From the NCBI GenBank assembly GCA_030740795.1, contig JASLWO010000037.1, positions 1 through 64,000 of the forward strand: DNA of 64,000 nucleotides, written 5' to 3'. Both the position numbers and the translations under genes were made by a program. Origin of the DNA: Acidimicrobiales bacterium. Its GTDB lineage: Bacteria; Actinomycetota; Acidimicrobiia; Acidimicrobiales; UBA8592. Below, piece by piece: positions 19,001 through 51,225 of the stretch; positions within the stretch are counted from its first letter, which is position 1, and each line of letters opens with the position of its first letter. The notes under the pieces are model-generated. The model saw nothing but the letters and a program-made list of their open reading frames with translations. It did no database searches and was not told where the DNA came from.

Positions 19001-19801
19001 TCAACTAGATGCTTCTTCTAATGTTTCTTCGTAAGCTTCCAAAGCTTCTGGGTTCATCTCAACGAACTCCATAAAGCTTGCTGAAATAGACTGGGGAGAT
19101 ATTCCATCTTCCCATTCAGGTAACTCTCCTGATTCAGCCCATAGAATATAAGCCTCTAATTGTTGTGTACCTTCTAGACCATGTGTTACACGTTCGTAGA
19201 GGACAACTTCAAGAATTTCAATAGATTCTAAAGCTGCAAAACCAGGCATGACTCCCTGATTCTGAGCAATTCGCTGCCCACCTTCCCTGTTAGAGTCCCC
19301 GTAGGGTGTCCCAGCTGGTGAAGATCCATTTACTACCCAAGCGATGTGGCTCTCAACATCAGGGAAGGTCTTTACTACTTCCCCCTCGTTAAGTTGGTAT
19401 CCGACTCCACCTCCTCCTCCTGCTCCATGGCAGGAAGAGCAATTAGCATCGTAAACTGCACCACCAGCTGCTACTGGACCCTCGTCATCGTAGGTAGGTT
19501 TTTCTAAAGTCCCCCAAATCATAAATGCCCAAATTGGAAGGAATAACGCTACTGGTGCCATCCAAACTGGGATTTTTTTGCGTTCTTGTGCTGCTGTTAC
19601 CCAAGGGGCAATTGGTTTAGGTGGTTCAATTTTTTCAATTACTGGCTCAGTAACTACAGGTTCGGTGATAGTGGGTTCCGAAGCGGAGGCGGTAACTTCA
19701 GCAGAGTCGCTACCAGTAGCGTCATTACCTGATGCAGCGCCAGTAAGTTGCGCACGAGCTTCTCGCGAGCGCTCCAATAAATAATCAGGAATTTCAACCA
19801 C
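19001..19801 (-). CDS. Class I cytochrome c with N-terminal IPDYLLER tag and one TM
   Basis: NCSSCHGAGGGGG haem c motif; GTG start at 19801 with GGAGG upstream. Confidence 0.8.
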   Translation of the reverse strand: MVEIPDYLLERSREARAQLTGAASGNDATGSDSAEVTASASEPTITEPVVTEPVIEKIEPPKPIAPWVTAAQERKKIPVWMAPVALFLPIWAFMIWGTLEKPTYDDEGPVAAGGAVYDANCSSCHGAGGGGGVGYQLNEGEVVKTFPDVESHIAWVVNGSSPAGTPYGDSNREGGQRIAQNQGVMPGFAALESIEILEVVLYERVTHGLEGTQQLEAYILWAESGELPEWEDGISPQSISASFMEFVEMNPEALEAYEETLEEASS

Positions 19802-20237
19802 TGCGGCCTCCAAGGGCGGTAATTAGAGAAAAATCAATATTGCTATTTGATAAGAAAGCCCAGTTACCTTCTTCGAGCTTTCTTAATTCAAATACGTGTA
19901 CTGCGTACACTACCCTTCCTTTTCTACTAGGGGTTCGCTCCAAACAAAAACCATCGGAGTCCCTAAACACTGTGCCTTACGCTTATAAGAATAGTTCCCA
20001 ACCATAGATGTTCGCCTAGTCAAGACACACCCTTTTCTTTTTTGTGGAAGATCCACGATTGACAGAATACATTGCTTCTTAAGGTTGTTTACCGACCCTT
20101 AAATGATCACTCTTCCCCCTTGATATAAAAGATTGAATTTGCGCTACTTTTTTATCCCAACTATTCCTAACTTCTATCGGGATCTTCTGTGTAATAACTA
20201 GTTCTATAACGTAAAAATAAACTTAAGGGGTCTTATT

Positions 20238-20332
20238 CACCCTTTTCAGTAAGAAGGGTGCCACGATGTGTTAACGGCTGAAATGTCGTGGTAAAAATTA
20301 GATAAGCGCTTCTGCTCAAATTGAGTGGAAGC
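20238..20332 (+). promoter_or_regulatory. Structured 5' leader with three hairpins upstream of cytochrome operon
   Basis: Stems 38-46/52-60, 61-66/86-91, 308-317/323-332 (last digits +20000). Confidence 0.4.
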
Positions 20333-20366
20333 ATACTTGTGAACCACTCGCGAGGGGAAGTAAAAA

Positions 20367-20963
20367 GTGGCCCAACAAAGGCCTGTTGATGTAGCAGTAA
20401 ATAAATTCTACGGAGCGATGATTACAGCAACCGTAGCTATATTTGCCATCGTGGCTTTTTGGGTTGGGTTAACGCGGGACTCAAATGGGCGTCAATTCCC
20501 ATACTTAAATACAGCTTTCGTTTTGAGTTGGTTAATCGCAGTTTTTATGGTGGTTGGGATTCTACAATACGCCCGCCGGAGACCAATCAATCAAGAAGCA
20601 ACCTGGGCCGAGGCAAGCATATGGTCAGCGTATGTATTCTTCTTCCTATTCTGGATTTATGGGGTAATCCCTCACCAATGGCTGACCTTTGCTAGCAATG
20701 ATCTTTCTTGGCGTGCAGATAAAGAACTAATTGGTCCTACTGGGTTGGGATTTACAAACGGGGAAGGACTCCTGCAATGGGCTTTGCCGTTCAAATTGAA
20801 TTATTTAGTCGTGGGAGACTTAATTGTCGTTGTTATTTACGGGCTTGGTCTTGTAGCTAATGTAGTCCTCTGGTCAATCTGGCAAAACCGTGGAAAGGTG
20901 GCTCCACCTGAAATTGAAGAATCCACTTATGGTCGACCTCTGCTAAGAGAAGGGGCTTCATAA
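20367..20963 (+). CDS. Membrane protein of cytochrome operon (uncharacterised subunit)
   Basis: Several TM segments, GTG start with GAGGGGAAG upstream, tightly packed with downstream ferredoxin. Confidence 0.6.
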   Translation: MAQQRPVDVAVNKFYGAMITATVAIFAIVAFWVGLTRDSNGRQFPYLNTAFVLSWLIAVFMVVGILQYARRRPINQEATWAEASIWSAYVFFFLFWIYGVIPHQWLTFASNDLSWRADKELIGPTGLGFTNGEGLLQWALPFKLNYLVVGDLIVVVIYGLGLVANVVLWSIWQNRGKVAPPEIEESTYGRPLLREGAS

Positions 20964-21380
20964 ATGGGTGTTTTAGATGCAAACCCTCCGCTTCCTGAAT
21001 TCAGGGACGACTATGTTCTCCAAGAAGTTGACCTAGACTGGTTATCAAAGGCAGTAAAACCGAAACAGTTTATTCATATTGACCAATCCGAATGCATCAT
21101 GTGTGAAGGTTGTGTGGATATTTGCCCTTGGAAATGCATCCACATGGTACGACCAGAGGCAATAGATGTAGCAGTGGGTACAGAACAACCCGGGGATGAC
21201 CCTACCGATCATGTTATTTTCACAATTGATGATGACGTTTGTACCCGTTGCGCTCTTTGTGTTGATAGGTGCCCAACCGGCGTCATTATCCTCGGAAAGT
21301 TAGAAAATCCACCGGCAGGTGGAGACAACCATCAACGTATGCCAAGCCATGGGTATGGCTATGGGATGAGACTGGGCTAA
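20964..21380 (+). CDS. 2x[4Fe-4S] ferredoxin-like protein
   Basis: CIMCEGCVDICPWKCI and CTRCALCVDRCPTGVI. Confidence 0.92.
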   Translation: MGVLDANPPLPEFRDDYVLQEVDLDWLSKAVKPKQFIHIDQSECIMCEGCVDICPWKCIHMVRPEAIDVAVGTEQPGDDPTDHVIFTIDDDVCTRCALCVDRCPTGVIILGKLENPPAGGDNHQRMPSHGYGYGMRLG

Positions 21381-21442
21381 GAAAGAAATGGTAGAAACGA
21401 AAACTTTTCAAGACAAATCAAAGATTAAGGTAAGGAATTAAC

Positions 21443-22207
21443 GTGGCAAAACAGTCACTTGGCGAGAAACTCGCTGATATCTCTGAAAAAACTAAATCCT
21501 CGCAGGCGTGGAATTCTATTTTCCGTCCGGGATCAATATTTAGGAAAGGCTACTCTGATAGCCCTCGTAACCGGTCGTATGTTGTCATGAACAGCCTGAT
21601 CTACCATCTCCACCCAGTAAAAGTAAAACGACATGCAGTTAAAGTCAGCTACACCCTTTGTTTAGGCGGGCTTAGCTTCTTTCTATTTATTCTTTTGACC
21701 GTTACCGGAATTTTCTTAATGTTCTTTTATCGACCCACTGCTGCACAAGCATGGGATGACATATACACGCTACAGACTTCGGTGACCTTCGGGCTCTTTG
21801 TTCGAAATATGCATAGGTGGACAGCTCATCTGATGGTATTAACTGTTTTCCTTCATATGGCTCGAGTCTTTTACCATGGGGCTTACAAAGCACCAAGGGA
21901 GTTTAATTGGGTAATTGGAGTTATTCTCCTGACGTTAACGCTTCTACTCTCATTTACTGGCTACCTGCTCCCATGGGACCAGTTAGCACTCTGGGCTGTC
22001 ACAGTGGGAACGAATATGATGGGGTACACCCCTGTCTTTGGTGACCAAGTCCGTTTTGTGCTCTTGGGAGGAGTCGAAATAGGAACGGACACATTATTAC
22101 GATGGTACGTCCTACATGTTCTCATGTTGCCGTTCGTAGCCGTCATCTTTATGGCGATTCATTTTTGGCGAGTAAGGAAAGATGGAGGTATCTCAGGTCC
22201 ACTTTAG
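21443..22207 (+). CDS. Cytochrome b N-terminal domain (b6-type)
   Basis: FVRNMHRWTAHLMV, GAYKAPREFNWVIGV, TGYLLPWDQLALWAVTVGT. Confidence 0.93.
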   Translation: MAKQSLGEKLADISEKTKSSQAWNSIFRPGSIFRKGYSDSPRNRSYVVMNSLIYHLHPVKVKRHAVKVSYTLCLGGLSFFLFILLTVTGIFLMFFYRPTAAQAWDDIYTLQTSVTFGLFVRNMHRWTAHLMVLTVFLHMARVFYHGAYKAPREFNWVIGVILLTLTLLLSFTGYLLPWDQLALWAVTVGTNMMGYTPVFGDQVRFVLLGGVEIGTDTLLRWYVLHVLMLPFVAVIFMAIHFWRVRKDGGISGPL

Positions 22208-22221
22208 GATGAGAAAAAAAC

Positions 22222-22950
22222 ATGGCTGAAATTCCTGAACATTTATTAAAAAGAGCTGAAGAAGCTAAAGCACGAGCAGGTGCAGAATCAGAAGGCGAAC
22301 CCGTCCCTAACGAAGCTACTGAAACCAAAGTTCCCGAAGAACTTCTTGACCGAACCAAAGCCGCTGGAGACCGAGATACGACGCTTGCAACCAAAGAGTC
22401 AGGGACACAAGTAGAACCGCCACAACTACCAGCACCAACAGGGTCAGGTCCGGCTGGCCACACTCAGAGGCTACTTACAGTAGTTAAGTCAGGGTCTATC
22501 CAGGACGTAAAACTAAAACCGGTAGATAAAGTCCATGTCTGGCCGCATCTCCTTGTTGTTGAATTCGTTGCTGCATTAGCAATAACTGCTTTTTCTACTG
22601 TCTTTTCAATATTTGTGAATGCGCCACTTCTAGAGCTAGCAAACTTTAATCAAACTCCGAACCCTTCAAAAGCCCCATGGTATTTCCTCGGACTTCAAGA
22701 ACTTTTAACAATGTTCCATCCGATGGTGGCTGGAGTAACAATTCCAGGTTTAGCCCTTTTCCTATTGATCTTGGCTCCATACATAGATAGAAACCCTTCC
22801 AACAAACCTGAAGACCGTAAATTCGCTATCTCATTAATGACTATCCATCTAATGTTTTGGGCGGTACTCGTAATGATTGGGTCCTTCTTCCGCGGGCCAG
22901 GATTCAACTTCATATTCCCTTGGGCAGATGGGCTCTTCTTCGAACTATGA
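22222..22950 (+). CDS. Cytochrome b C-terminal domain (subunit IV-like) with N-terminal IPEHLLKR tag
   Basis: MAEIPEHLLKRAEEAK...; NPSKAPWYFLGLQELL plus TM helices. Confidence 0.88.
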   Translation: MAEIPEHLLKRAEEAKARAGAESEGEPVPNEATETKVPEELLDRTKAAGDRDTTLATKESGTQVEPPQLPAPTGSGPAGHTQRLLTVVKSGSIQDVKLKPVDKVHVWPHLLVVEFVAALAITAFSTVFSIFVNAPLLELANFNQTPNPSKAPWYFLGLQELLTMFHPMVAGVTIPGLALFLLILAPYIDRNPSNKPEDRKFAISLMTIHLMFWAVLVMIGSFFRGPGFNFIFPWADGLFFEL

Positions 22951-23002
22951 CCTATTACTCACCGATCGTTATTCACTCAGACAAGGGAATTAATAAAGAG
23001 AC

Positions 23003-23884
23003 TTGGACCTATCAGTGGTAGTTCTAGCTTTTGCCATACCGGCTGTAGTAATTCTCGGATCTCTTTTACTCTTTGCTGCTTCACGCCGTAGCGAAACTAC
23101 GAAAGCTGAAGGGCAGCTAAGTAAAGAAACGCGCCAACGAGACTTAGATTCTCAAGGGTCTGATGAAACCGCTTCTACCGGATCGGGGCAGATAAGCGGA
23201 CGAGAAATAGAGAGAGCGGCAGTAATAGAAAGACTCGGACGAGACGAGATTGAAGAACCTGAAATAACCGTTCCAGTCCAATGGACTGCTCCAGATGAAG
23301 AAGCCGTTGGAGTGGCAAGGAGACAGTTTTTAAACAGAAGCATCGTTGGTTTAATGGGTTTGTCAATAACAAGCTTCGGAGCGGCCTGTATAGCGTTTCT
23401 ATACGGAGGAGGAGGCGGCGGCGGATTCGGTTCAAAAATCAAAGTAGGGAACGTAACCGATGTAGAAGCGAAAATAGATGCTGCGAATGGTTTCCTTTAT
23501 GTTCCCGAAGGACGTATGTGGGTCACAAAATATCCTTTAGGGTCGATTAAAAAAGCGGAAGCCGCCTATTCATCTCCTGAACTTGCAGGAATGCAATCAG
23601 GACTCGTTGCTTTGTACCAGAAATGCCCACACCTTGGTTGTCGAGTACCAGAATGCTTAACATCTCAATGGTTTGAATGCCCATGCCATGGTTCACAATA
23701 CAACCGAGTAGGAGAGAAAAGAAGCGGGCCTGCTCCAAGGGGAATGGATCGATTTGCAATGGAAGTTAAAGACGGAGTTTTCGTAGTCGATACGGGAACC
23801 ATTATTCAAGGACCCCCTATAGGTACAAACACCACTGGACAAGAAGCCGAAGGACCTAACTGTATAGGACAGTCAGATCATTAA
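23003..23884 (+). CDS. Rieske [2Fe-2S] protein (QcrA/PetC-like)
   Basis: CPHLGCRVP...FECPCHGSQYN. Confidence 0.92.
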   Translation: MDLSVVVLAFAIPAVVILGSLLLFAASRRSETTKAEGQLSKETRQRDLDSQGSDETASTGSGQISGREIERAAVIERLGRDEIEEPEITVPVQWTAPDEEAVGVARRQFLNRSIVGLMGLSITSFGAACIAFLYGGGGGGGFGSKIKVGNVTDVEAKIDAANGFLYVPEGRMWVTKYPLGSIKKAEAAYSSPELAGMQSGLVALYQKCPHLGCRVPECLTSQWFECPCHGSQYNRVGEKRSGPAPRGMDRFAMEVKDGVFVVDTGTIIQGPPIGTNTTGQEAEGPNCIGQSDH

Positions 23885-23914
23885 ATAGGAAACCCAAGAA
23901 GAGACAACGAACAA

Positions 23915-25174
23915 ATGACACTTTACGCAGCATCAACTCAGAGAACGATAGGACTGGTTCTAGCTATCGTTGTCGCCATAGGTTTTGCTGTATACGTACT
24001 CATCAACATACGTGCAGGTCGAAAAGAAATAGGCTCTGAAATAGAACTTGCCCCAAATCGAAAACGATATTTTGAAGATGAAATTCTTGAAACAAGACGC
24101 TTGGATATAGCGTTGACCGCTGGGTTAGCGATGCTGATAATTATTGCGCTCTGTCTGCCTCTTTATTGGTTGGGAGAACCCGGACGCCAAGACGGATTTG
24201 AGAATTTAACTGGTAACCAGTTCGCGAGCAGAGGTAGTGAAATCTACGAAGAGCAATGCACTCGATGTCATGGTGCTGGTGGCGTCGGAGGGGAAGCCGA
24301 TTACACGATCCTAGATGATCAAGGTAGATATATTACGGCAGTGAATTGGACTGCTCCAGCCTTAAATACGATCCTCTACAGGTTCAGTGAAGAAGAAGTA
24401 ACTCATATTCTGAATTATGGTCGCCCGCAATCACCTATGCCGGCTTGGGGTGGTCCCGGGGGTGGACCACTAACAACTCAACAACTTGAATACATCGTGG
24501 GGTACTTAATTGAGATTCAGTTAACTCCTGAACAGATGGCATCAGAAGTTCAAGAGGGACTTCGGGAAAGCGTCCTCAAGGAAGTTCGAGATGTGGACCC
24601 TGGCGCAACAGATTCTGAGTTAGTGGAACTTTACAATACCCTTTTCGATGGGTTGGGAGACGCTTACCTGCATGATTTAGAAATCAAACAGAACCCTGAA
24701 GCAGATGTGGAAGAAATTGAAGAAGCGGAAGAAGATCTCCAGCATTTGTTAGATGATTACCTTGTAGATCTCGCAGAGAAGAATGCCGCAAAATACGGAG
24801 AGTATCTATTTAACAATCCAGCCGCAGCTGGGTCGTATGCTTGCGCTCGATGTCATACTGCAGGGTCATCTTGGAATGCAGATGATCGCCTCGCTTCAAA
24901 TAGTGATCTAGTAGGTCTTATCAACCCTGAAATCCCTGGAAGTGGCGGGTTTGGCCCATCTCTAATAGGGGTAATATCACAATTCACATTGGCACAAGAC
25001 CAAGCAGAGTTTATCTCTACTGGTTGCGAACCAAACTTACAATACGGACTGAACGGTGTCTGTGAACCTTCAGGTCAAATGCCCGGATTTGGTGTAAACG
25101 CAACTGACCTAGAGGGCTCTGTACTTACTCAAGACCAAATATCCGCAATCGTTGAATATGAGAGAGGATTGTAA
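23915..25174 (+). CDS. Dihaem cytochrome c, membrane anchored
   Basis: Two CXXCH motifs: CTRCHGAGG, CARCHTAGS. Confidence 0.9.
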   Translation: MTLYAASTQRTIGLVLAIVVAIGFAVYVLINIRAGRKEIGSEIELAPNRKRYFEDEILETRRLDIALTAGLAMLIIIALCLPLYWLGEPGRQDGFENLTGNQFASRGSEIYEEQCTRCHGAGGVGGEADYTILDDQGRYITAVNWTAPALNTILYRFSEEEVTHILNYGRPQSPMPAWGGPGGGPLTTQQLEYIVGYLIEIQLTPEQMASEVQEGLRESVLKEVRDVDPGATDSELVELYNTLFDGLGDAYLHDLEIKQNPEADVEEIEEAEEDLQHLLDDYLVDLAEKNAAKYGEYLFNNPAAAGSYACARCHTAGSSWNADDRLASNSDLVGLINPEIPGSGGFGPSLIGVISQFTLAQDQAEFISTGCEPNLQYGLNGVCEPSGQMPGFGVNATDLEGSVLTQDQISAIVEYERGL

Positions 25175-26385
25175 TGATTGATAAATTGCACCTCTTCCAG
25201 ATCGTTGCCGGAATTAGTTGGGATCCTGAAATTCGAGGAGCGTTAACGGTACTGGTCGGATCTGCTGTTCTTTTCGGTTCAGTCTGGCTCATATTAAATA
25301 CGAATCTAGGAAGTCGTCTCGGGACGATGATCGCATTGACGGGTTTTTTCGGATGGATGATGATTATGGGAATCGTATGGTGGATCTACGGGATTGGTTT
25401 AAAAGGAGACAGTCCCACGTGGGAACCCAAGGAAATTATCTACGGAGATCTCGGAGAGTCTGAAACAGATGTTAAGAAATTAGGATCGGGGAAAATAAAA
25501 GTAACTGAAGCTAGTGAAATAGTAGACATTTATTGCCCCGGCTTGGTAGACGCTACGGTTGATGTCCAACGAGCACGGTACGTGGAAGATAATGTTGACC
25601 TAAAGCTTGACTACGATGCCCCACAACCCTATTGCACGGAATCAATTGGGGAGAAACTTGCCGTAGATGAAGAAACACTTGCAGATACGACAATGGAAGG
25701 CAACGAGCGACTTCTCGCTGATGCAGAACAGAACGGAATAGAAGACTCACGAATCCTTACAGAAGAACAATTATCGGAAGAAATAGCAAAAGTCATTAAT
25801 GACCAGGAAATAAAATTAAGTCAGTTGACACTCAGCGGGTTAGCTGCTCTCAGCGGGGAAATCATTGATGACGCCCGTTCGGACGGTTTGCTTGATTTCA
25901 ATGACTGGAACCTACTATCAACTAGCAGTGCAGGTGAAGCCATAGCATCCGCCGATGCTTTCTTGAAAAGTGACTCAGATAGCCCATTTTTCAATAGATC
26001 TAGCGATGATTTCTTTGTCCTGAACACATTCCAAAAAGGTGGCAAACCTAAACGAAGTAGCGACAGTGTTATTGACCGAGTTGCAAACGAGATCCGAAAC
26101 ACGATTATTTTCTGGCATCCCACAAACAGGGTTGTCGTAACTGTCGCACCAACGATTGATAAAGAACCAATTGCAGGTCAAGCTCCTCCTTTCCCTGAGA
26201 TAGATCCCGCTGCGCAAAAAGTTTCGGTAGTGATGGAAAGAAACCTTGGAACCTTACGTCTACCAGCTGCGTTAACGACGATTGGTTCAGCGCTTGCTTT
26301 CTTTGGACTGTGCTTCATGCTCAGTCAACGTGAGCGCGAACTTCAAAGACGGACAGAAGACTGGGAATCATCAACGGCCACATAG
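25174..26385 (+). CDS. Uncharacterised membrane protein with large soluble domain
   Basis: TM pair at N-terminus and TM at C-terminus, between cytochrome and nuo genes, ATGA overlap. Confidence 0.6.
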   Translation: MIDKLHLFQIVAGISWDPEIRGALTVLVGSAVLFGSVWLILNTNLGSRLGTMIALTGFFGWMMIMGIVWWIYGIGLKGDSPTWEPKEIIYGDLGESETDVKKLGSGKIKVTEASEIVDIYCPGLVDATVDVQRARYVEDNVDLKLDYDAPQPYCTESIGEKLAVDEETLADTTMEGNERLLADAEQNGIEDSRILTEEQLSEEIAKVINDQEIKLSQLTLSGLAALSGEIIDDARSDGLLDFNDWNLLSTSSAGEAIASADAFLKSDSDSPFFNRSSDDFFVLNTFQKGGKPKRSSDSVIDRVANEIRNTIIFWHPTNRVVVTVAPTIDKEPIAGQAPPFPEIDPAAQKVSVVMERNLGTLRLPAALTTIGSALAFFGLCFMLSQRERELQRRTEDWESSTAT

Positions 26386-26406
26386 GCTAAGATTGAGGGG
26401 GGCACC

Positions 26407-26874
26407 TTGTTAGGTCAATATTTACCAATCCTCGCCATGATGATTCTTGGCATCATCTTTGCCGGCATTAGCCTTATCGCTTCTCGCCTATTAGCTCCAC
26501 GACAACCAACAAAAGCAAAAGAAGATCCTTATGAATGCGGTATAACTTCTTCACAAGACCCTCCAGAGCGCTTCCCAGTCCGTTTTTTCCTTGTCGGCAT
26601 GATCTTTATCGTTTTTGACGTTGAAATTATCTTCATGTACCCATGGGCAACAACATTTCGAGAGATTGGCTTGTTTGGCCTCGTCGCTATGCTCATTTTC
26701 TCATTTGCAGTATTCGAATCCTTCTTATACGTCATTGGTAATGGAGCCCTTGAGTGGGGACCTACCAAAAAACTTAAAAAACAACGCATCATAGATCCAA
26801 ACAGAACTACTAATTCAACTATTCGCCGAGTTGGGCTTGAAGGAAGAGTCCCTGAACAAGAGGAAGCCGCCTAA
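26407..26874 (+). CDS. nuoA: NADH-quinone oxidoreductase subunit A (copy 1)
   Basis: [42 protein letters not shown]. Confidence 0.95.
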
Positions 26875-27473
26875 TGCCCAAACTTCCAATACTTGGTGAA
26901 ACAAGCAACATAAGCGAAGATGGACTTGCCGGTTTCGACCACAATTTCCTCACTGGGAAAATTGAAGATCTAGTAAAGTGGTCTAGAACACGAAGCATGT
27001 GGCCAGCAACTTTTGGTCTAGCTTGTTGCGCTCTAGAAATGATGGCAACTGGTGCCGCTCATTACGACTTAGCACGTTGGGGAATGGAAGTATTTCGAGC
27101 CTCTCCAAGACAAGCAGACCTGATGATCGTTGCGGGACGAGTATCTCAAAAAATGGCTCCAGTCCTTAGACAGGTGTACGACCAGATGATGGAACCCAAA
27201 TGGGTTATATCAATGGGAGTTTGTGCAAGTTCTGGCGGCATGTTCAATAACTATGCCCTAGTACAAGGAGTAGACCAGATAGTTCCTGTCGATGTTTACG
27301 CTCCAGGTTGCCCACCAGGCCCTGAGACTTTAATGCATGCAATTCTCCAACTCCACGAGAAAGTCGAAAATGGTGAAATTACCCGCCGTCGAAAAGAAAT
27401 GGATGGGGGTGCTGGAATCATGGTTGAACAACGTGATGGTCAGACAGCTACAAAAGTAATTATTGGCAAGTGA
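26874..27473 (+). CDS. nuoB: NADH-quinone oxidoreductase subunit B (copy 1)
   Basis: [27 protein letters not shown]. Confidence 0.97.
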
Positions 27474-27482
27474 GAAACCATA

Positions 27483-27980
27483 ATGCCTGACGATACAAAA
27501 ACAAATGAAGACAATGATGGGACAATCCCCTCCACGATGTCTCATGGGCAAAACGTCCTCCACCCCAATCGCGAAAACCTTCTCGAAGTAATAAAAAATC
27601 TCCGAGAAGAAGGTTTCGTAGTTTGCATTGACATAACCGCAGTTGATTATCTAGAAAATCCCAAGCGAGACTTGCCCGCATCGGTCAAGCCAGAACGCTT
27701 TGAGATAGTAATCAACCTACTTTCCCACACGAAACGAGAACGACTCCGCCTCCGAGTGCAAATCCCTGAACTGGAACCGACGCTACCAACGCTTTTTGAT
27801 ATCTACCCAGGATCTGAAGCTTTGGAACGAGAAGTACATGATTTATTTGGGATTACTTTCGAAGGCCATCCAGATATGACGAGAATCCTTATGCCAGAGA
27901 ATTGGGAAGGGCATCCTCTCCGAAAAGACTATGACATTGGGAAAATTCCTGTTCAATTTAAAGAAGCGCCTGGTTCCTAA
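27483..27980 (+). CDS. nuoC: NADH-quinone oxidoreductase subunit C (copy 1)
   Basis: EREVHDLFGITFEGHPDMTRILMPENWEGHPLRKDY. Confidence 0.95.
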   Translation: MPDDTKTNEDNDGTIPSTMSHGQNVLHPNRENLLEVIKNLREEGFVVCIDITAVDYLENPKRDLPASVKPERFEIVINLLSHTKRERLRLRVQIPELEPTLPTLFDIYPGSEALEREVHDLFGITFEGHPDMTRILMPENWEGHPLRKDYDIGKIPVQFKEAPGS

Positions 27981-29272: not shown

Positions 29273-29880
29273 GCCGATTAAACGAAGAAAGCCTCCGAAT
29301 AGCTAATGAGATAATTAACCGGTACCCAATTAAAAAATCAGCACTGATACCTCTACTTCATTTAGCTCAAGAACAAGAAGGATGGGTGACAGATCAAGCA
29401 ATGCGCCACATAGCTGAGATTCTTGGAGTTACCCCTGCGGAAGTTCTGGGAACATGCAGTTTTTACGAAATGTTCAAACGAAGTCCAGTAGGAGAATATC
29501 AAGTCAATGTCTGCCACGGAATTTCTTGCCACCTACTTGGGGCAGAAAACCTCCTTCACCACGCTGAAGATACTTTAGGAATTAAAGAAGGAGAAACTAC
29601 CCAAGATGGGAAATTCTCATTAGAAGGAGTTGAGTGCATAGCCGCATGTACCGAAGCTCCATGCCTGCAAGTCAACTACCGGTATCAAAACAAGGTAACA
29701 ACATCCGATTTCAATGAGCTAGTACAAGAAATCATCGACGGAGAACGTTCAGACATACCGAAACATGGCTCATTGGCAAAGGTAAGACAAAATATTTCGC
29801 CCGAGCGACTTGCTGGAATTGAACCAGTTGAGCATGCTGAACAACCCGAATGGTTGAACCGGAATGGGCAAGACTCATGA
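29269..29880 (+). CDS. nuoE: NADH-quinone oxidoreductase subunit E
   Basis: CHGISCHLLGAE, CIAACTEAPCLQVN. Confidence 0.95.
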   Translation: MSRLNEESLRIANEIINRYPIKKSALIPLLHLAQEQEGWVTDQAMRHIAEILGVTPAEVLGTCSFYEMFKRSPVGEYQVNVCHGISCHLLGAENLLHHAEDTLGIKEGETTQDGKFSLEGVECIAACTEAPCLQVNYRYQNKVTTSDFNELVQEIIDGERSDIPKHGSLAKVRQNISPERLAGIEPVEHAEQPEWLNRNGQDS

Positions 29881-33703: not shown

Positions 33704-33704
33704 G

Positions 33705-34928: not shown

Positions 34929-34977
34929 ATCAAATCTCCCCCTTCAAGTCTTTTAAATCTCAGAGAGGGTCACCCCA

Positions 34978-35616
34978 ATGAGTATGCTCAATTTTTTTAA
35001 AGGTTTCGCTGTTACCTTTGGCAAACTCAATCATGCTACTAAATCCGGAAAGGTCGTCACTACAAGCTACCCGAAGGAGAAAAGAGATAAACCTCTAAGA
35101 CTCCATGGAAGGCATGTACTGAATCGTTATGACGATGGAATGGAAAAATGCATAGGATGTGAACTTTGCGCAAGCGTCTGCCCAGCGAATTGCATCTACG
35201 TACGCGGAGCTGACAACGACCTTGACCAACCAACATCGCCTGGGGAGCGCTTTGGTTTCATTTACGAAATAAATTACCTTCGCTGCATCCATTGCGATCT
35301 CTGCGTTGAAGCATGCCCTACACAAGCAATTACAGAAACCAAACTTTTTGAGTTTTCCTTCACTGATCGTCAACAAGCTATATACACCAAAGAGGAGTTA
35401 GTAGTTGATGACACTGGGAAACCCAAACACCTTCCATGGGAAGACTGGCGACCTGGTGAAGATGAATTCACCTCAGCATGGATGCGAGCGACTTCACCTT
35501 CTGGCGCAGCCAGCTATGCAGGTAAGGTCCAATGGACTCCAGAACTTGGATATGGAACCCGCCAACCAGAAAAAGGTCAAAGCGAACAGATACTAGAAAC
35601 AGAAGGTGATCAGTGA
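34978..35616 (+). CDS. nuoI: NADH-quinone oxidoreductase subunit I (copy 1)
   Basis: CIGCELCASVCP, CIHCDLCVEACP. Confidence 0.96.
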   Translation: MSMLNFFKGFAVTFGKLNHATKSGKVVTTSYPKEKRDKPLRLHGRHVLNRYDDGMEKCIGCELCASVCPANCIYVRGADNDLDQPTSPGERFGFIYEINYLRCIHCDLCVEACPTQAITETKLFEFSFTDRQQAIYTKEELVVDDTGKPKHLPWEDWRPGEDEFTSAWMRATSPSGAASYAGKVQWTPELGYGTRQPEKGQSEQILETEGDQ

Positions 35617-36350
35617 TGGAAGCTGTAACTTTCTTTATCGCCGCTTTAATTGCAGTCGCCGGCGCTTGCGGAGTCGTTTTTCTAAAGAACCCCGTACACG
35701 CTGCCCTCTCTCTAGTAGCCACTCTGTTTGGAGTAGCTATTCATTTCATAAATTTAGAAGCCTACTTCTTAGCAGTCGTCCAAGTTATTGTGTATGCAGG
35801 TGCAATCGTCATCCTATTCCTATTTGTCATAATGCTCTTAGGCGTGGACAGGGCTGAGAGTATGGAAACAGACCCAATCATCGGCCAGCGGCAAATAGCT
35901 CTTCTTGCAACCGTCGGATTATTAATACTAGGAACTCTCATTGGTGTCGCATTCTCAGGAGATGTAACCGGGATCCCACCAATCGAAGCTCAACAATCAA
36001 CTTTTGATGGCGGATTGGTTATAGATAATGGGTCTATAGATGAAGGAATTCCGCCACAACAAAACATCAAAGAAATAGGAAGAGGACTATTCTCCACAAG
36101 GTATGTATTTGCGTTAGAAATTACCGCACTTCTTCTTACGATAGGTGTCGTAGGAGCAGTGGTACTGACCAGAAGACCTAAATCAGCGTTGGATCCTCTG
36201 CCCGATGAAGAACCATCAGCGATAATGCGCAACTCAGAAGAAGAATTAGCAGAAACTCCAAGTGAGATTGAAGAAACCCCTACCGAAGAAACCGGAAAGT
36301 CCGATACAGAGAATCTTTCCAATGAAGAATCGGAGGTAATCGGAGAATGA
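35613..36350 (+). CDS. nuoJ: NADH-quinone oxidoreductase subunit J (copy 1), acidic C-terminal tail
   Basis: [51 protein letters not shown]. Confidence 0.94.
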
Positions 36351-36664
36351 CTTTAGCTCTAACAATAGGAACCGAATACTACCTAGCCCTTTCAGCCTTA
36401 CTTTTCACAATCGGTGCCGGAGGGCTACTTGTTCGGAGGAACCCACTGATTATGTTTATGTGCATTGAATTAATGCTCAATGCCGCAAACCTAGCCTTCG
36501 TTAGCTTTGGGAAAGAAATGGGTGATCTGGGAGGTCAACTATCAGTTCTTTTTGTTCTTGTAGTAGCAGCAGCCGAAGTGGTAATCGGATTAGCGATCGT
36601 AGTAGCTGTAATGCGTAGGCGACCTAAAGCATCAATTGACGAAGTATCGGTTCTAAGAGGGTAG
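36347..36664 (+). CDS. nuoK: NADH-quinone oxidoreductase subunit K (copy 1)
   Basis: [23 protein letters not shown]. Confidence 0.95.
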
Positions 36665-38622
36665 TGATGGATAATCTTGTTTGGTTAATACCCGCCTTCC
36701 CTCTCATCGGCTTCACCCTTCTTCTTCTTTTCGGTAAACGACTAGGAGAACCAAATGCGGGATGGCTTGCCACAATTATGGTTTCTGGCTCGTTCATTTC
36801 AACGCTATGCGTTTTCATCGGAATGGTAGGGAAACCTGGGGAGGAGCGAGTATATGAGATAACGCTTTTTGAATGGATTCCATCTGGGGAACTAACCGTA
36901 GGACTGGGCTTTCTAGCAGATCCTCTATCTATAACTATGGCCCTTTTCATAACCGGCGTAAGTGCCTTAATTCACATGTATGCGATTGGGTATATGCATG
37001 GAGACCAGAATTTCTCTAAATTCTTTATTTACCTCAACTTATTTGTTTTTTCTATGCTTATGCTCGTCCTTGGCGACAACCTCTTAATAACTTTCTTAGG
37101 TTGGGAAGGAGTAGGGGCCTGTTCATATTTACTTATTTCCTTTTGGCACCAAGACCCAGCAAATGCCTCAGCAGGCAAGAAAGCTTTCGTCACCAATCGG
37201 GTAGGTGATTGGGGCTTTATGGTCGCGATGTTCCTACTTTTCTTCAATATCGGCTCCCTAAAATACAGTGATATTTTCTCTTCAGTAATTAATGCCGATG
37301 CATTAACTCAAACAACAGCAACGGCTATCGTGGCCATGCTGTTCATAGGAGCTGCAGGTAAATCAGCACAGTTCCCACTTTATTTATGGCTCCCAGACGC
37401 CATGGCAGGACCAACCCCAGTCTCGGCTTTAATCCATGCTGCGACGATGGTTACATCTGGAGTCTATTTATTGACAAGAATGAACCCAGTTCTAGCTGAA
37501 GCAGCTGGCTGGTCAACCAATTTAATTTGGATAGTGGGCTTATTTACTGCTCTATTTGCTGCTACTGCTGCAGTTGCACAAAACGATATAAAGAAAGTTC
37601 TCGCATACTCGACGGTAAGCCAACTTGGTTTCATGTTTGTAGCTGTTGGCTCAGGCCTTTATGTAGCAGCAATTTTTCATATGATTACACATGCCTTTTT
37701 CAAAGCCCTTCTTTTCCTCGGGGCAGGATCAGTAATTCATGGAATGCATGATGAGCAAGACATGAGAAAATATGGGGCTTTGAAAAAAGTCATGCCAATC
37801 ACCGCCAGCACATTTATTATCGGCTGGCTAGCAATTTCAGGGATCCCTCCGTTTTCAGGATTTTGGTCCAAGGACGAAGTTCTCCTTGCAGCCTGGAATG
37901 AGAATAGGGTCGCTTGGGTACTTCTCCTAATAGCAGCGATAATGACTGCGTTCTACATGAGCAGACTTGTTTTTATGACTTTCTTCGGCGAGAAGCGATG
38001 GGGAGAGGAAGAAAAGGAAACGAATTTACTAGATGAAGGTGAAGAAATTCTACCTTCAGACGAAGATCAGCCACACACCGTTAACCCTCATGAATCTCCA
38101 GTGTTGATGTGGTTCCCGTTAGTAGCATTAGCAGGACTCGCAGTGTTCGCGGGAATATTGAATCTACCGTTTAGCCACGACACTAAATATCTTGAAAAGT
38201 GGTTAGAACCTGTCCTTTTCGGAAATGAAGTACACGTTCTTGCTTCAACCTCAACAAAATGGCTTTTAGCTATTATTGCGATCATAGGAGCGACAATTGG
38301 CGTAGTTAGCGCCGCTTGGGTGTATTTAAAGAATCGTTTCGACTCCACTAAAATAGAACTTCCCATCCTTCAAGATGCTTGGAGATTTGATCGCTCTGTA
38401 AGCGAATTTATGGGAGGGCCCGGAAAGAAAGTATTTGAATTAGTGACTTGGTTCGATAGAACCGTTATAGATGGCGCAGTAAATGGGGCTGGGAAATTAA
38501 CCCAAGGTTTAGGAACACGGTTACGCGCCACACAAACTGGCCTAATTAGAACGTACGCATTGGGAATGGTCATTGGCGCTGTCGCTATTCTTGCTTATTT
38601 CGTTTCAAGGATGAACTTCTAA
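36664..38622 (+). CDS. nuoL: NADH-quinone oxidoreductase subunit L (copy 1)
   Basis: WEGVGACSYLLISFW, LPDAMAGPTPVSALIHAATMVTSGVYL. Confidence 0.96.
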   Translation: MMDNLVWLIPAFPLIGFTLLLLFGKRLGEPNAGWLATIMVSGSFISTLCVFIGMVGKPGEERVYEITLFEWIPSGELTVGLGFLADPLSITMALFITGVSALIHMYAIGYMHGDQNFSKFFIYLNLFVFSMLMLVLGDNLLITFLGWEGVGACSYLLISFWHQDPANASAGKKAFVTNRVGDWGFMVAMFLLFFNIGSLKYSDIFSSVINADALTQTTATAIVAMLFIGAAGKSAQFPLYLWLPDAMAGPTPVSALIHAATMVTSGVYLLTRMNPVLAEAAGWSTNLIWIVGLFTALFAATAAVAQNDIKKVLAYSTVSQLGFMFVAVGSGLYVAAIFHMITHAFFKALLFLGAGSVIHGMHDEQDMRKYGALKKVMPITASTFIIGWLAISGIPPFSGFWSKDEVLLAAWNENRVAWVLLLIAAIMTAFYMSRLVFMTFFGEKRWGEEEKETNLLDEGEEILPSDEDQPHTVNPHESPVLMWFPLVALAGLAVFAGILNLPFSHDTKYLEKWLEPVLFGNEVHVLASTSTKWLLAIIAIIGATIGVVSAAWVYLKNRFDSTKIELPILQDAWRFDRSVSEFMGGPGKKVFELVTWFDRTVIDGAVNGAGKLTQGLGTRLRATQTGLIRTYALGMVIGAVAILAYFVSRMNF

Positions 38623-40268
38623 TGGGTTTACTAACTATCTTTGCCGCCGCTTTACCAGAAACATCATTCCCTGCCATCCCCGTGCTTGTGTTACTCCCGG
38701 CATTTGGAGCAGTTGCCGTAGCGTTAACTCCGAATGCAAGAATTGGCTTACACAAACTACTAGCAACGGTCTTTACTGGAATAACAGGAGCCATCTCCGT
38801 ATGGGTTTTAACAGCGTTTGAGAGCAATGGCGATTATCAATTCTTATCTGAACAGACCTGGGTGGACAGTCTTGGGATTCAGTGGTTAGCAGGTATAGAT
38901 GGAATCTCACTGTTTCTGGTAGTACTCACTGGTTTATTATTCCCATTCGTAGTTATTGCCATAAACCCACATCATGACCACAAGGCTTACTACATCTGGA
39001 TCCAACTCCTTCAAACGGGATGCATGGGCGTATTCGTTTCCCTTGACCTGTTTATGTTCTTTGTCTTTTTTGAGATCGTTCTCGTTCCCATGTATTTCCT
39101 TATAGGGAAATGGGGACACGGAAATGCTAGATATGCCGCCACGAAATTCTTTCTTTACACGATGCTTGGTTCCGCTTTGATGTTGGTCAGTATCATCTCT
39201 TTGGTCGTGCTTCACTCCAAAAATGCAGGTACAGACCTAACCTTTAATTTAATAGAAATAGCCTCCAACCCTGCCATTTCAACAACATCAGCACGAATAA
39301 TCTTTCTAGGATTCGCACTAGCTTTCGCCGTGAAAGTTCCACTATTCCCAGTTCACACATGGCTCCCTGACGCACATACTGAAGCTCCAACAGCAGGATC
39401 GGTCATCCTTGCAGGAGTAATGCTTAAATTAGGTACGTACGGATTTATTAGATTCGGGTTATATCTTTTCCCAGAAGCCTCGCACTTTTTTGCACCGCTA
39501 TTTATAACACTTGGCGTTGTCGGAATTATTTATGGGGCGATAGTCGCAACAATGCAAAAAGACCTCAAGCGGCTCGTGGCGTACTCTTCAATAGCTCACC
39601 TTGGCTTCATTGTGCTAGGAACCTTCGCTCTCAATACTCAGGGAATTCAAGGCGCCACAGTTCAAATGATCAATCACGGACTATCTACTGGCGCACTTTT
39701 CATGCTTGTCGGGCTCATCTATGAGAGAAGGCATACTCGTCAAATTTCTGAGCTCGGAGGAATACAGAAATCGGCGCCTGTGTTAGCTGGAACTTTCACA
39801 TTAGTAATGCTTTCATCAGTTGGACTCCCAGGTCTTAACGGCTTTGTTGGAGAATTCCTCATTCTTCTCGGAGCTTTCACAGCTCATCGTTGGTGGGCAC
39901 TTCTCGCGGCTACTGGCGTTATTCTCGCAGCTCTCTACCTCCTATGGGCTTACCAAAGAGTTTTCCATGGGCCTGAAAATGGTGCAGATGATCAAGACAA
40001 TACAACACCAGATTTAACTAACTGGGAACGACTTACTCTATTTCCCCTGATAGCAGGGATTATCTTCCTAGGAATTTACCCGAAACCCATGCTTGACCGA
40101 ATAGAACCAGCCGTAGACAAACTAGTTACCCATATAGAAGAAACAATTGGTGATGATTCATTCACTGAACCTGTACCAACTGTTCAGATTCGACAATCAT
40201 TTACCGATCTTCTTGAACAAACTCACGAAACACACGAAGACAACACTCATTCAGGAGGGCATGAATGA
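38622..40268 (+). CDS. nuoM: NADH-quinone oxidoreductase subunit M (copy 1)
   Basis: FFEIVLVPMYFLIGKWG, HTWLPDAHTEAPTAGSVILAGVMLKLGTYG. Confidence 0.96.
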   Translation: MGLLTIFAAALPETSFPAIPVLVLLPAFGAVAVALTPNARIGLHKLLATVFTGITGAISVWVLTAFESNGDYQFLSEQTWVDSLGIQWLAGIDGISLFLVVLTGLLFPFVVIAINPHHDHKAYYIWIQLLQTGCMGVFVSLDLFMFFVFFEIVLVPMYFLIGKWGHGNARYAATKFFLYTMLGSALMLVSIISLVVLHSKNAGTDLTFNLIEIASNPAISTTSARIIFLGFALAFAVKVPLFPVHTWLPDAHTEAPTAGSVILAGVMLKLGTYGFIRFGLYLFPEASHFFAPLFITLGVVGIIYGAIVATMQKDLKRLVAYSSIAHLGFIVLGTFALNTQGIQGATVQMINHGLSTGALFMLVGLIYERRHTRQISELGGIQKSAPVLAGTFTLVMLSSVGLPGLNGFVGEFLILLGAFTAHRWWALLAATGVILAALYLLWAYQRVFHGPENGADDQDNTTPDLTNWERLTLFPLIAGIIFLGIYPKPMLDRIEPAVDKLVTHIEETIGDDSFTEPVPTVQIRQSFTDLLEQTHETHEDNTHSGGHE

Positions 40269-41788
40269 TCCAGAATATGTCCTTCATTGCAAGTAACTCC
40301 CTACAAACGCCATCTGTTTCCTGGTCAGGGCTTTTGCCAGCAATAATCCTTGCGGCAGCAGCAATCCTACTTTTAACAATCTGCTCACTTACACCAATCA
40401 AGATTACCAATCAGCAACTAACCATCTATACCTGTGTTGCAGCAGTTGGCAGCCTTGTAGCTACGATTCCACTTTGGTTAAGAGTCCAAGACGAATCAAG
40501 GGGCCCTTTCTCTACCATTTCAGGCGCCTTTGGTATAGATGGGTTCTCTCTTTTCGTGACGATGCTTCTCACCGTCAGCGTCATTCTTGTCTCATGTCTA
40601 GCAGGAGTATTTTTAAAGTCGGAAGACATAGAAGGCCCAGAATCATATGTTCTTCTTCTTCTGTCAGCAACTGGCGGAATAATCATGGCTGGAGCAAATG
40701 ATTTCATAATTCTCTTTTTAGGGATAGAGGTTCTTTCTATATCCGCATATGTACTTGCGGCAATGAACTTAAAGCGAATTCAATCCCAAGAAGCGGGCTT
40801 AAAGTATTTCGTTCTCGGAGCCTTTGCCTCAGGGTTTCTCCTGTATGGAATCGCTCTCCTTTATGGGGCGACAGGATCAACTGAACTAACTGCTATCCGA
40901 AACTTCCTTGTAGATACAGAACTTACAAATGACACTCTGCTCTTAGCGGGACTAGCACTAATCATCGTTGGATTCGCGTTTAAAGTTGCAGCAGTTCCCT
41001 TCCACTTCTGGGCTCCAGACGTATACCAAGGAGCCCCCACACCATTTGTGGCCTACATGGCTTCTGCAATTAAAGCAGCAGGGTTTGCTGCTATGTTGAG
41101 AGTGCTTTATGTGACGTTCGGTCAATATCGGGCTGACTGGCAGCCTGTTATCTATGGAATCGCTATAGCGACGTTACTTCTAGGCTCGCTCCTTGCAATC
41201 GTCCAAACAGACCTAAAGAGAATGCTGGCATATTCATCAATTAGCCACGCCGGCTATCTTCTCGTTGGAACACAAGCCGCATCAGACCAAGGCGTAGCAG
41301 CGGTACTTTTCTACTTAGCCACGTATGCATTCATGGTTATAGGAAGTTTTGCTGTCATATCTTTAAATTCTGGTCCAGCCGGAACCGAAACAGACTTGAA
41401 TTCAGTAACTGGGCTAGCAAATCGGAAACCAATGCTCGCAATTGCTTTCACGGTTTTCCTTCTTGGTCAGGCTGGAATCCCTTTAACATCTGGTTTCTTC
41501 GCTAAATTTTATGTCATCGAAGCAGTTATAGAAGAGGAATCTTTCGGCTTGGCCATTGTAGCGATGCTCGCAGCCGTGATCGGCGCATTTCTTTATCTTC
41601 GTATTCTGGTGAAAATATGGTTGACAAACCAGGAAACCGTTAGCGAAGAGGGAAAGATGATCGTTATCCCCAAGCAGGTATCCTTTGTTCTAACGATAGC
41701 TACAATAGTGACGCTCTTCTTGGGAGTATGGCCTGAACCTCTAGTAGAAATGGTTCAGCGAGCAGTCCCAGTTTTGATGGCGAGTTGA
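40265..41788 (+). CDS. nuoN: NADH-quinone oxidoreductase subunit N (copy 1)
   Basis: GIEVLSISAYVLAA, FHFWAPDVYQGAPTPFVAYMA. Confidence 0.96.
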   Translation: MIQNMSFIASNSLQTPSVSWSGLLPAIILAAAAILLLTICSLTPIKITNQQLTIYTCVAAVGSLVATIPLWLRVQDESRGPFSTISGAFGIDGFSLFVTMLLTVSVILVSCLAGVFLKSEDIEGPESYVLLLLSATGGIIMAGANDFIILFLGIEVLSISAYVLAAMNLKRIQSQEAGLKYFVLGAFASGFLLYGIALLYGATGSTELTAIRNFLVDTELTNDTLLLAGLALIIVGFAFKVAAVPFHFWAPDVYQGAPTPFVAYMASAIKAAGFAAMLRVLYVTFGQYRADWQPVIYGIAIATLLLGSLLAIVQTDLKRMLAYSSISHAGYLLVGTQAASDQGVAAVLFYLATYAFMVIGSFAVISLNSGPAGTETDLNSVTGLANRKPMLAIAFTVFLLGQAGIPLTSGFFAKFYVIEAVIEEESFGLAIVAMLAAVIGAFLYLRILVKIWLTNQETVSEEGKMIVIPKQVSFVLTIATIVTLFLGVWPEPLVEMVQRAVPVLMAS

Positions 41789-41983
41789 CATCATGGATCA
41801 AAAATTTTTTTATTCCCTGACCACGATTAACTTGTTCCCAGAAATGATCCTCAACGAAATCTCCCCCTATCGACTAACAAAAAATACTAAACCTGATTTA
41901 ATCACCTTTAGACGGCTACTCTGGAGTATCTTGGTGCTTTACGCCTTGGTCCAGTTGCCTTCTACTTACTACTATTTAACGAA

Positions 41984-42349
41984 GTGTCCGATTTTCTACG
42001 CAGTTATTTAACGGTCGCCGTTTTCGGTGTTCTGGCATGCGCCCTAGTAGGCGCTTTCGTAGGCCTGAGCGCGCTTATACGACCATCACGCAAACAGGAT
42101 CAAAAATACCTGACTTACGAATCAGGAGTTGACCCAGTTGGTACTGGGTGGGCGCAAAGCAATATCCGATACTACATTTTTGCGTTACTCTTCGTAATGT
42201 TTGATGTTGAGGCAGTATTCATATTCCCATGGGCCACACGTCTAGAGCAATACGGACTGTTTGGACTAGTTGAAATGGCAATCTTTATCTTTATTCTTTT
42301 ATTAGGACTCTTATACGCATGGAGAAAAGGGGTGCTCAAATGGCACTGA
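41984..42349 (+). CDS. nuoA: NADH-quinone oxidoreductase subunit A (copy 2)
   Basis: [44 protein letters not shown] start. Confidence 0.94.
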
Positions 42350-42377
42350 TCACCGTTCTCGCGAAAAGGAGGGGAAT

Positions 42378-42878
42378 ATGGGCTTAGTGGAATCCGGCAA
42401 AATGCCCAAACCTCTTACAAAGCTACTCAACATGAGTCGCAGATATTCCATGTGGGTGTACCAATGGGGTTTAGCATGCTGTGCAATTGAAATGGGGGCA
42501 GCCTTTGCTTCCCCTCGCTATGACGTTATGCGACTTGGAGTAATTCCTCTCCCAGCAAGCCCAAGACAAGCCGATTTCCTTGTGGTCTCAGGGACTGTTA
42601 CGGACAAGATGGCGCCAGCAGTTCGAAGACTCTGGGAACAAATGCCCGACCCAAAGTACGTAATCTCAATGGGGTCGTGTGCTAATTGCGGAGGCCCATA
42701 TTGGGACTCATACTCAGTAACTAAAGGAGTGGACCAAATTATCCCAGTTGATGTTTATGTTCCTGGATGCCCACCAAGACCCGAAGCTTTATTAGAGGGA
42801 ATTGTATTACTCCAGGAAAGAATCATGAATGAGGATATGGCTGAACGATGGAAAGGTGATCCAATTGTTGTCGAATAA
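42378..42878 (+). CDS. nuoB: NADH-quinone oxidoreductase subunit B (copy 2)
   Basis: [54 protein letters not shown]. Confidence 0.97.
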
Positions 42879-42919
42879 ACGAACCACGCTTCGCCTTTAC
42901 CCTAGAGAAGGGAAGATCC

Positions 42920-43684
42920 ATGTCTGAGATACCTGAACACCTCCTCAAACGCGCACAAGCAGCGAGAGAAAAAGCTGAATCAAGTCAAGAACCAACAGAT
43001 AACGCGTCCCCTACCAAAGAGACAAATAGCCAGACTACCGTCGCTGTCGCAGATGAAAGCCCAATACAAGAAATAGATGAAAAGGCAGAAGAAATTCTAG
43101 AAAGAATTAGTAAAGGTCTCGGGCAAAAACTTATATCATCTCACATAGCTCCCAATAGAGGTTTATGGATACGCGTCTCCAGCGATGATTGGCGAGAGAC
43201 GGCACAATTCCTTCGGGACCAACTCGATTGCCGATTCTTTGACTGGCTATCGGTTATTGACTGGATGCCATCACCATATGGAAGAGAATTAGAAACCGAA
43301 CAAGACGTAGACTCACAAGCTGAAAGAATTGAGGATCAACCCATAGAGTGGGGTTACACAGGCGGAAAAACAAGATTTCAACTTATAACCCGGGTCTACT
43401 CAATATCCTTAGGGATAGGGGTAATGGTCAAAGCAGATTTAGATGACCATAATCCGCGAGCACTGTCACTTATCCCTGTTTATCCAGGAGCAAACTGGCA
43501 TGAACGAGAAGCGCGTGAAATGTTCGGGGTTACATTTGATGAACATCCAGATTTGAGAAACATATACCTTCCAGGTGATTTTGAAGGCCACCCGCTTAGA
43601 AAAGACTACCCACTTCTTTCAAGAAGAATAAAGCCTTGGCCTGGAATTGTGGATGTAGAAGCAATGCCTGGAGAAGAGAAATGA
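42920..43684 (+). CDS. nuoC: NADH-quinone oxidoreductase subunit C (copy 2) with N-terminal IPEHLLKR tag
   Basis: MSEIPEHLLKRAQAAREKAE...; EREAREMFGVTFDEHPDLRNIYLPGDFEGHPLRKDYPL. Confidence 0.94.
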   Translation: MSEIPEHLLKRAQAAREKAESSQEPTDNASPTKETNSQTTVAVADESPIQEIDEKAEEILERISKGLGQKLISSHIAPNRGLWIRVSSDDWRETAQFLRDQLDCRFFDWLSVIDWMPSPYGRELETEQDVDSQAERIEDQPIEWGYTGGKTRFQLITRVYSISLGIGVMVKADLDDHNPRALSLIPVYPGANWHEREAREMFGVTFDEHPDLRNIYLPGDFEGHPLRKDYPLLSRRIKPWPGIVDVEAMPGEEK

Positions 43685-45890: not shown

Positions 45891-45942
45891 TAGAAATCAA
45901 TCTAACTAAACCCAATCAACAAGCGATTGGAGGCCACTTCTG

Positions 45943-49566: not shown

Positions 49567-49578
49567 GAGAAACCTGAT

Positions 49579-51222: not shown

Positions 51223-51225
51223 AAA

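Follow-up and report, generated by a model that had tools for sequence, protein, structure and literature searches.

Why should three unrelated respiratory proteins, encoded in a single window of Acidimicrobiales DNA (the whole stretch analysed, 64,000 nucleotides), share a short N-terminal peptide with the consensus M-x-E-[IV]-P-[ED]-[HY]-L-L-x-R-[AS]? This peptide (hereafter the tag) was described in an earlier note on the same DNA and is present at each position given there: 19801 on the minus strand, 22222 on the plus strand, with a second copy at 22327–22374, and 42920 on the plus strand. As that note had claimed, the hosts are non-homologous, with Pfam assignments to cytochrome c, Cytochrom_B_C and Complex1_30kDa, respectively.

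Tagged proteins and their genomic surroundings

The first carrier is a membrane-anchored c-type cytochrome (19001–19801, minus strand; Pfam Cytochrom_C/CBB3), which consists of the tag (MVEIPDYLLERSREARAQ, 19748–19801, minus strand; predicted helix at residues 6–20, pLDDT ~80), a disordered linker, one transmembrane helix (residues 79–98 in the AF2 model) and a CxxCH domain. Its proposed start codon, GTG at 19801, is supported because ATG, GTG or TTG is kept at the same position in 57/57 tagged cytochrome c loci, a count in which some genomes appear twice. The second carrier is the C-terminal (subunit IV-like) part of cytochrome b (22222–22950, plus strand; PF00032, Cytochrom_B_C), which begins with one copy of the tag (MAEIPEHLLKRAEEAKARA, 22222–22278, plus strand; predicted helix at residues 6–21) and, as sequence comparison indicates, bears a degenerate second copy (KVPEELLDRTKAAGDR, 22327–22374, plus strand), in which P38, L41, L42, and R44 are invariant among 58 orthologues. 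This gene belongs to a bc-type complex operon (20367–25174, plus strand, defined by ORF content and Pfam) that encodes a transmembrane protein of no known family, a 2x[4Fe-4S] ferredoxin-like protein, the N-terminal half of cytochrome b, the tagged C-terminal half (the two halves being split at 22207/22222), a Rieske protein, and a di-haem cytochrome c subunit with two CxxCH motifs (ORF 23915–25174).

The third carrier is NuoC (42920–43684, plus strand; Complex1_30kDa), whose tag (MSEIPEHLLKRAQAAREKAE, 42920–42979, plus strand), recovered in a profile search of the genome, scores as a tag of the cytochrome b type. Its earlier assignment to complex I stands, with the correction that the enzyme is the 11-subunit form, encoded by a nuoABCDHIJ(K)LMN cluster without nuoEFG (41984–52758, plus strand, by ORF order and content; nuoK, too short for the ORF length cut-off applied, is inferred), and not the 14-subunit form at 26407–41788, whose own NuoC is untagged. 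Next to nuoN in the window lies a Methyltransf_28 protein of the NDUFAF7 family.

Distribution and conservation of the tag

The window's own 2.05-Mb assembly was scanned with six-frame HMM and pattern searches. The tag HMM (E ≤ 0.05) gave exactly three matches, all on respiratory proteins; the unanchored DNA pattern found the same three tags and one further match that was not at a gene start and was dismissed as lying outside a gene. Across the phylum, the anchored pattern, in which the match begins at ATG, GTG or TTG, occurred 30 times in 22 of 397 genomes, every one of them in Acidimicrobiia, and the reversed pattern did not occur at all. False positives excluded on ORF inspection were transporters with ‘LRQxIVPEHLLGRVNS’, large ORFs with ‘IPDHLLVRQT’, and EF-G. 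Among orthologues in the order, the tag is present on 42/42 cytochrome b C-terminal proteins (37/42 with at least two recognisable copies) and on 45/45 cytochromes c; for NuoC the count is 16/40, divided into 16/16 in the window's family (f1) and 0/24 outside it, so the NuoC copy is a local gain. Conservation among orthologues thus holds for the two cytochromes but not for NuoC beyond f1. The tag recurs within Acidimicrobiia, the one class in which it has so far been found, rather than in Actinobacteria at large. Chance resemblance of three N-termini has in its favour a few isolated single matches inside EF-G, an MFS transporter and a large ORF of ~1000 aa; set against 30 anchored matches with none in the control, an HMM search returning only respiratory proteins and the orthologue counts, it was rejected, its probability being negligible.

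Selection on the protein sequence of the tag is strong. Tags of orthologues are 90% identical on cytochrome b and 79% identical on cytochrome c, compared with just 20–21% for residues 23–40, and pairwise differences between tag codons amount to 0–6% at second positions and 42–58% at third positions. AF2 models give a helical tag and a disordered linker (linker pLDDT <50); the model of the cytochrome b C-terminal protein is of low overall confidence (mean pLDDT 58). Within genomes, the tags of cytochromes b and c co-vary (mean distance 8.43, against 9.43 when shuffled; 0/2000), but this relationship is confounded by relatedness and is therefore not counted as proof.

The full module and its carriers

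Beyond the order, there is a longer module of ~33 residues that has the tag as its first half; its consensus is x-[IMA]-P-E-x-L-[LV]-x-R-S-A-x-A-R-A-x-x-x-G-x-x-V-[ED]-x-V-L-A-[EA]-[MW]-x-G, it is probably a helix-turn-helix and it is found in one to five copies (five in L205 and L201). Within the class the module occurs at N-termini, at C-termini, and in internal arrays of at least seven non-homologous proteins, which bears out strongly the earlier description of a portable element: the cytochrome b C-terminal protein, cytochrome c, a FixO-like cytochrome c, NuoC, NuoI, KorA (2-oxoacid:ferredoxin oxidoreductase, POR_N/POR), and a transmembrane protein in the coxC-coxD-ctaG oxidase operon. The 11-subunit complex I gained the module twice, on different subunits: NuoC in f1 and NuoI in family f114, where the cluster of L441 is complete and lacks nuoEFG. 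The tag on KorA is confined to part of f114, and a search of the window's own assembly (90% complete) gave no KorA match. A few members of the order have a C-terminal tag on an Nfu_N-like protein (G308, G128, and G025) and on a small LPD30-like protein; these are not electron carriers, so the theme may be wider and extend to Fe-S or respiratory assembly.

Two types of module are distinguished by position 30, which is M, L, I or F on the cytochrome b C-terminal protein, KorA, and NuoI and W on cytochrome c, the FixO-like protein, and the oxidase-operon protein; these types match the two halves of the electron chain. In L337 and L338, the modules of cytochrome c and the FixO-like protein are 97–100% identical in DNA over 150 bases, and copying between genes therefore happens. 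Such copying, and the frequent adjacency of tagged genes, would suit a passive N-terminal extension that was spread by recombination between neighbouring genes and persisted for the sake of translation start or solubility. Residues, however, are held although synonymous sites are scrambled, copies are also internal and C-terminal, the linkers in the same genes are not conserved, and further carriers lie on other contigs (KorA and the oxidase operon), all of which makes such an origin very improbable. An element acting at the level of DNA or translation is ruled out by the third-position divergence and by the internal and C-terminal copies.

Searches of Pfam, NCBIfam, and PDB with the tag or the module returned no natural homologous family, the best PDB matches of the module being designed repeat proteins with few residues aligned; as judged from sequence comparison, the 33-residue module appears to be undescribed. 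By eye, its length and P...L...A...G...V spacing resemble those of E3_binding/PSBD (PF02817) and ribbon-helix-helix (PF01402) domains; both assignments were rejected, as module-bearing proteins gave no Pfam match to either family and a profile search of PDB (E ≤ 10) gave none either. None of the papers searched contains the string IPEHLLKR or treats Acidimicrobiia together with a respiratory supercomplex, or together with both cytochrome bc and complex I.

A candidate docking module for electron-transport proteins

The same module sits on non-homologous proteins that are consecutive in one electron chain, and for this reason docking or localisation that tethers the complexes offers, on sequence grounds, the best explanation of the distribution of carriers; we consider it fairly likely that the module is a portable docking element holding electron-transport proteins of Acidimicrobiia together and that the tags of the window are its short form. 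Because the transmembrane helix of cytochrome c comes after the linker, its tag is placed in the cytosol, and topology suggests the same side for the tags in general; NuoC, NuoI, and KorA are cytosolic. Carried in one to five copies on long disordered linkers, probably at the cytosolic face of unrelated redox proteins, the module would most likely bind either other copies of itself or one common cytosolic partner, and many weak and flexible contacts would keep the bc complex, its cytochrome c, and the oxidase near each other. In some lineages, the ferredoxin-type complex I may also be drawn in, along with the enzyme that supplies it with reduced ferredoxin; with the NuoC tag present in a single family and the tag on KorA in part of f114, the class as a whole cannot depend on complex I or KorA being tethered. 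A more elaborate form of the docking hypothesis, which we hold only tentatively, is a dockerin-like metabolon linking 2-oxoacid:ferredoxin oxidoreductase, the 11-subunit ferredoxin-type complex I, the bc complex, cytochrome c, and the oxidase, with two cognate module types (M on the quinone-reducing side, W on the cytochrome c/oxidase side) and a valency tuned by copy number on cytochrome b.

The module could instead be recognised by a factor for assembly or quality control (a chaperone that inserts Fe-S or haem, a protease adaptor or a membrane-targeting factor) and play no part in holding finished complexes. The main carriers are all cofactor-bearing or encoded in the oxidase operon, the Nfu_N-like protein with a C-terminal tag (G308, G128, and G025) is a homologue of an Fe-S scaffold, and the gene next to nuoN in the window encodes an NDUFAF7-family protein; yet c-haem, b-haem, Fe-S, and TPP enzymes, whose assembly routes differ, are all among the carriers, and multivalent assembly better accounts for five copies on one stable subunit and for two types divided by chain segment, which leaves this alternative rather unlikely. 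Less probable again is that the module sets a membrane or cell location (by binding lipid, a pole or part of the cytoskeleton) while the tagged proteins make no direct contact with one another. The tag is a predicted helix of moderate hydrophobic moment (0.20–0.36) and many carriers are in the membrane, but a negative mean hydrophobicity and a net charge of ~0 are ill suited to binding lipid, the majority of carriers are already integral membrane proteins, and KorA is soluble.

Docking of this kind would have parallels elsewhere. Cellulosome dockerins are portable docking modules of enzyme assemblies. PKS/NRPS docking domains (PMC9113145) are portable docking domains of the same broad kind. 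Like the module, both are small, fused to many non-homologous enzymes of a single process through linkers that are flexible, N- or C-terminal, and sometimes repeated; the module differs in having no sequence match and in its respiratory, mostly membrane carriers, and neither a cohesin-like receptor nor another binding partner was found here. In Mycobacterium and Corynebacterium, the bc complex is linked to the oxidase in an obligate III2IV2 supercomplex through a QcrB loop and the di-haem QcrC, without free cytochrome c (PMC8361435). If docking holds, one resemblance lies in an actinobacterial bc-oxidase linkage made in part by an extension of cytochrome b; another is that the bc operon encodes a cytochrome c subunit with two haems (in the window, ORF 23915–25174). 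In contrast, cytochrome b of the window is split rather than a single-chain QcrB, a separate, membrane-anchored cytochrome c is tagged, and the module is also found on other proteins. For the 11-subunit complex I, the direct electron donor is treated as open in a section of PMC11238625, which cites the view that the enzyme is a platform on which several donors dock; NuoC of the window and NuoI of L441, the tagged subunits, both belong to nuo clusters without nuoEFG, whereas that section describes no docking tag.

Respiratory supercomplexes in general have fixed interfaces. If the docking hypothesis is true, a portable, repeated module marking one electron carrier after another would organise a respiratory chain in a different manner, and the list of carriers would serve as a map of expected neighbours in it. 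In part of f114, the ferredoxin-reducing KorA and NuoI of the 11-subunit complex I share the module, which bears on the electron donor of this enzyme. In UBA5794, a sister order of Actinomarinales, KOR replaces 2-oxoglutarate dehydrogenase (PMC12008989), which makes it plausible that this group uses reduced ferredoxin as a substrate for respiration.

A shared N-terminal tag in the window and its relatives

Three proteins of the window begin with the peptide M-x-E-[IV]-P-[ED]-[HY]-L-L-x-R-[AS]: a membrane-anchored cytochrome c (19001–19801, minus strand), a cytochrome b C-terminal subunit (from 22222, plus strand) and NuoC (from 42920, plus strand). The earlier note had reported this tag on unrelated proteins, and each peptide was found exactly where it had been placed, on proteins whose domains (cytochrome c, Cytochrom_B_C and Complex1_30kDa) are indeed unrelated. 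Within the 2.05-Mb source assembly (GCA_030740795.1), an unanchored pattern recovered the three tags plus a single further match, which lies at no gene start, and a tag HMM (E ≤ 0.05) matched exactly these three. The objection that the motif occurs at random frequency fails: the start-codon-anchored pattern gave 30 matches in 22 of 397 phylum genomes, every one in the window's class, and the reversed control pattern gave none in the 397. The class is taken as Acidimicrobiia because the best relatives of the cytochrome b subunit among named genomes, marine and other MAGs, are mostly labelled Acidimicrobiales, Acidimicrobiaceae or Acidimicrobiia.

Orthologues were sampled from 60 relatives (most of the window's genus, plus a single genome for each family of its order). 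The expected conservation held for cytochrome b (42/42 tagged) and cytochrome c (45/45) and broke down for NuoC, tagged in 16 of 40 orthologues, all within the window's family (f1); the 24 outside it have no more than a low-complexity extension, mostly acidic. Scored against the two tag profiles, the NuoC tags fit that of cytochrome b far better than that of cytochrome c, so this tag was probably gained from a cytochrome-b-type copy. Between orthologues the tag is 79–90% identical, against ~20% for the nearby linker, and its codons keep the residues with third positions differing in 42–58% of comparisons. Cytochrome b and c tags resemble each other within genomes, a similarity confounded by relatedness. 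Of the cytochrome b proteins, 37/42 have at least two copies; the second reads [SG][KR]IPAHLLERSKAAR, and the window has a degenerate version of it, KVPEELLDRTKAAGDR (22327–22374).

Two complex I clusters adjoin in the window, one of 14 subunits with nuoEFG (26407–41788) and one of 11 without (41984–52758); it is the 11-subunit cluster that encodes the tagged NuoC. Directly 3′ of nuoN lies a Methyltransf_28 gene (52808–53836) of the NDUFAF7-like complex I arginine methyltransferase family, and a similar gene fragment is also 3′ of nuoN at L441, a locus of another class genome. The bc operon opens (20367–21380) with a transmembrane protein that falls into no clear family, followed by a ferredoxin-like protein with 2x[4Fe-4S], an arrangement suggesting that ferredoxin contacts the bc complex. 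Between this operon and the first nuo cluster sits a 403-aa protein (25174–26385) with transmembrane segments, a soluble middle and a weak DUF6594 match only. An 868-aa ORF (55931–58537) is an unusual fusion, in which a sulfatase domain is followed by a DJ-1/PfpI domain at the C-terminus.

The full module and its carriers

Elsewhere in the class, outside the window's order, cytochrome b subunits start with [IV]PEHLLRRSAEAKAKALGxPVEQVLAEMKGE, a 33-residue module present in 1–5 copies separated by Pro/Ala/Glu-rich linkers (about five each at L205 and L201). The tag is half of this larger module, of which mainly the first helix is retained in the window's order. AF2 with orthologue alignments predicted a helix at residues 6–21 of cytochrome b and 6–20 of cytochrome c, followed in both by disordered linkers; the cytochrome b model was weak overall. 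A full-module profile matched none of ~310 phylum members outside the class at E ≤ 0.001.

To find carriers, class genomes (148 in one search, 20 in another) were searched with profiles and the ORFs were then read; the inventories rest on six-frame searching of MAGs, not all of which are complete. The proposal of a portable element was strengthened by these carriers: a divergent cytochrome c; a FixO-like mono-haem cytochrome c adjoining the cytochrome c gene; a multi-transmembrane protein with no Pfam match, after CtaG in a coxC-coxD-ctaG operon (L434, L350); NuoI of an 11-subunit complex I (L441, entire cluster read); and KorA (2-oxoacid:ferredoxin oxidoreductase), with copies at both termini. 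KorA is present class-wide and tagged only in part of f114, a 1-Mb, 34–37% GC family that we infer from its size and GC to be Actinomarinales-like (f1 and f114 are labels specific to the present analysis). In the window's order, the short tag also occurs in a small LPD30-like protein (one genome) and, as VPAHLLERSRAARARLKG at the extreme C-terminus, in an Nfu_N-like protein of three genomes (L429:559–1332, L430:476–922, L431:1254–1601); the Pfam match of the Nfu_N-like protein is weak (E 0.0012).

Two module types and exchange of copies

Module position 30 is M, L or F in 47/47 distinct assigned cytochrome b copies, M or I in 5/5 KorA copies and L in the single NuoI copy; it is W in 23/24 cytochrome c copies and 9/9 FixO-like copies, and also on the oxidase-operon protein. 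This split matches the two halves of the electron-transport chain. At L352, at least one N-terminal cytochrome b copy has W at this position; the gene is interrupted by Ns and the copy was left out of the assigned set. In adjacent FixO-like and cytochrome c genes (L338:3879–5700 and L337), the N-terminal modules are 97–100% identical in DNA in both genomes; therefore copies are being exchanged, which points to gene conversion or a recent duplication.

Probable docking, a rival assembly role and a candidate donor for complex I

The module belongs to none of the Pfam, NCBIfam or natural PDB families within search reach; E3_binding and RHH membership were rejected, neither giving a match in the reachable family databases. 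In mycobacterial III2IV2, the link is made by a QcrB loop and di-haem QcrC (PMC8361435), whereas the window has a split cytochrome b and an anchored cytochrome c as a separate protein, and that arrangement was rejected.

In the AF2 model of cytochrome c, the tag precedes a single transmembrane helix and then the haem domain. Because of this order, and because NuoC, NuoI and KorA are cytosolic by family, the tags are predicted to face the cytosol. A module that is small, conserved and repeatable, hangs on flexible tethers and is borne by successive carriers of one chain looks like a docking or scaffold-binding module, and may work much as a dockerin or docking domain does; we infer that it binds. 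The main rival, recognition of the tag by an assembly factor, is slightly favoured by the Nfu-like carriers. The direct electron donor of the 11-subunit complex I is described as open in one report (PMC11238625). Since KorA and NuoI carry the same tag, our results suggest KorA as a candidate electron donor for this complex in f114.
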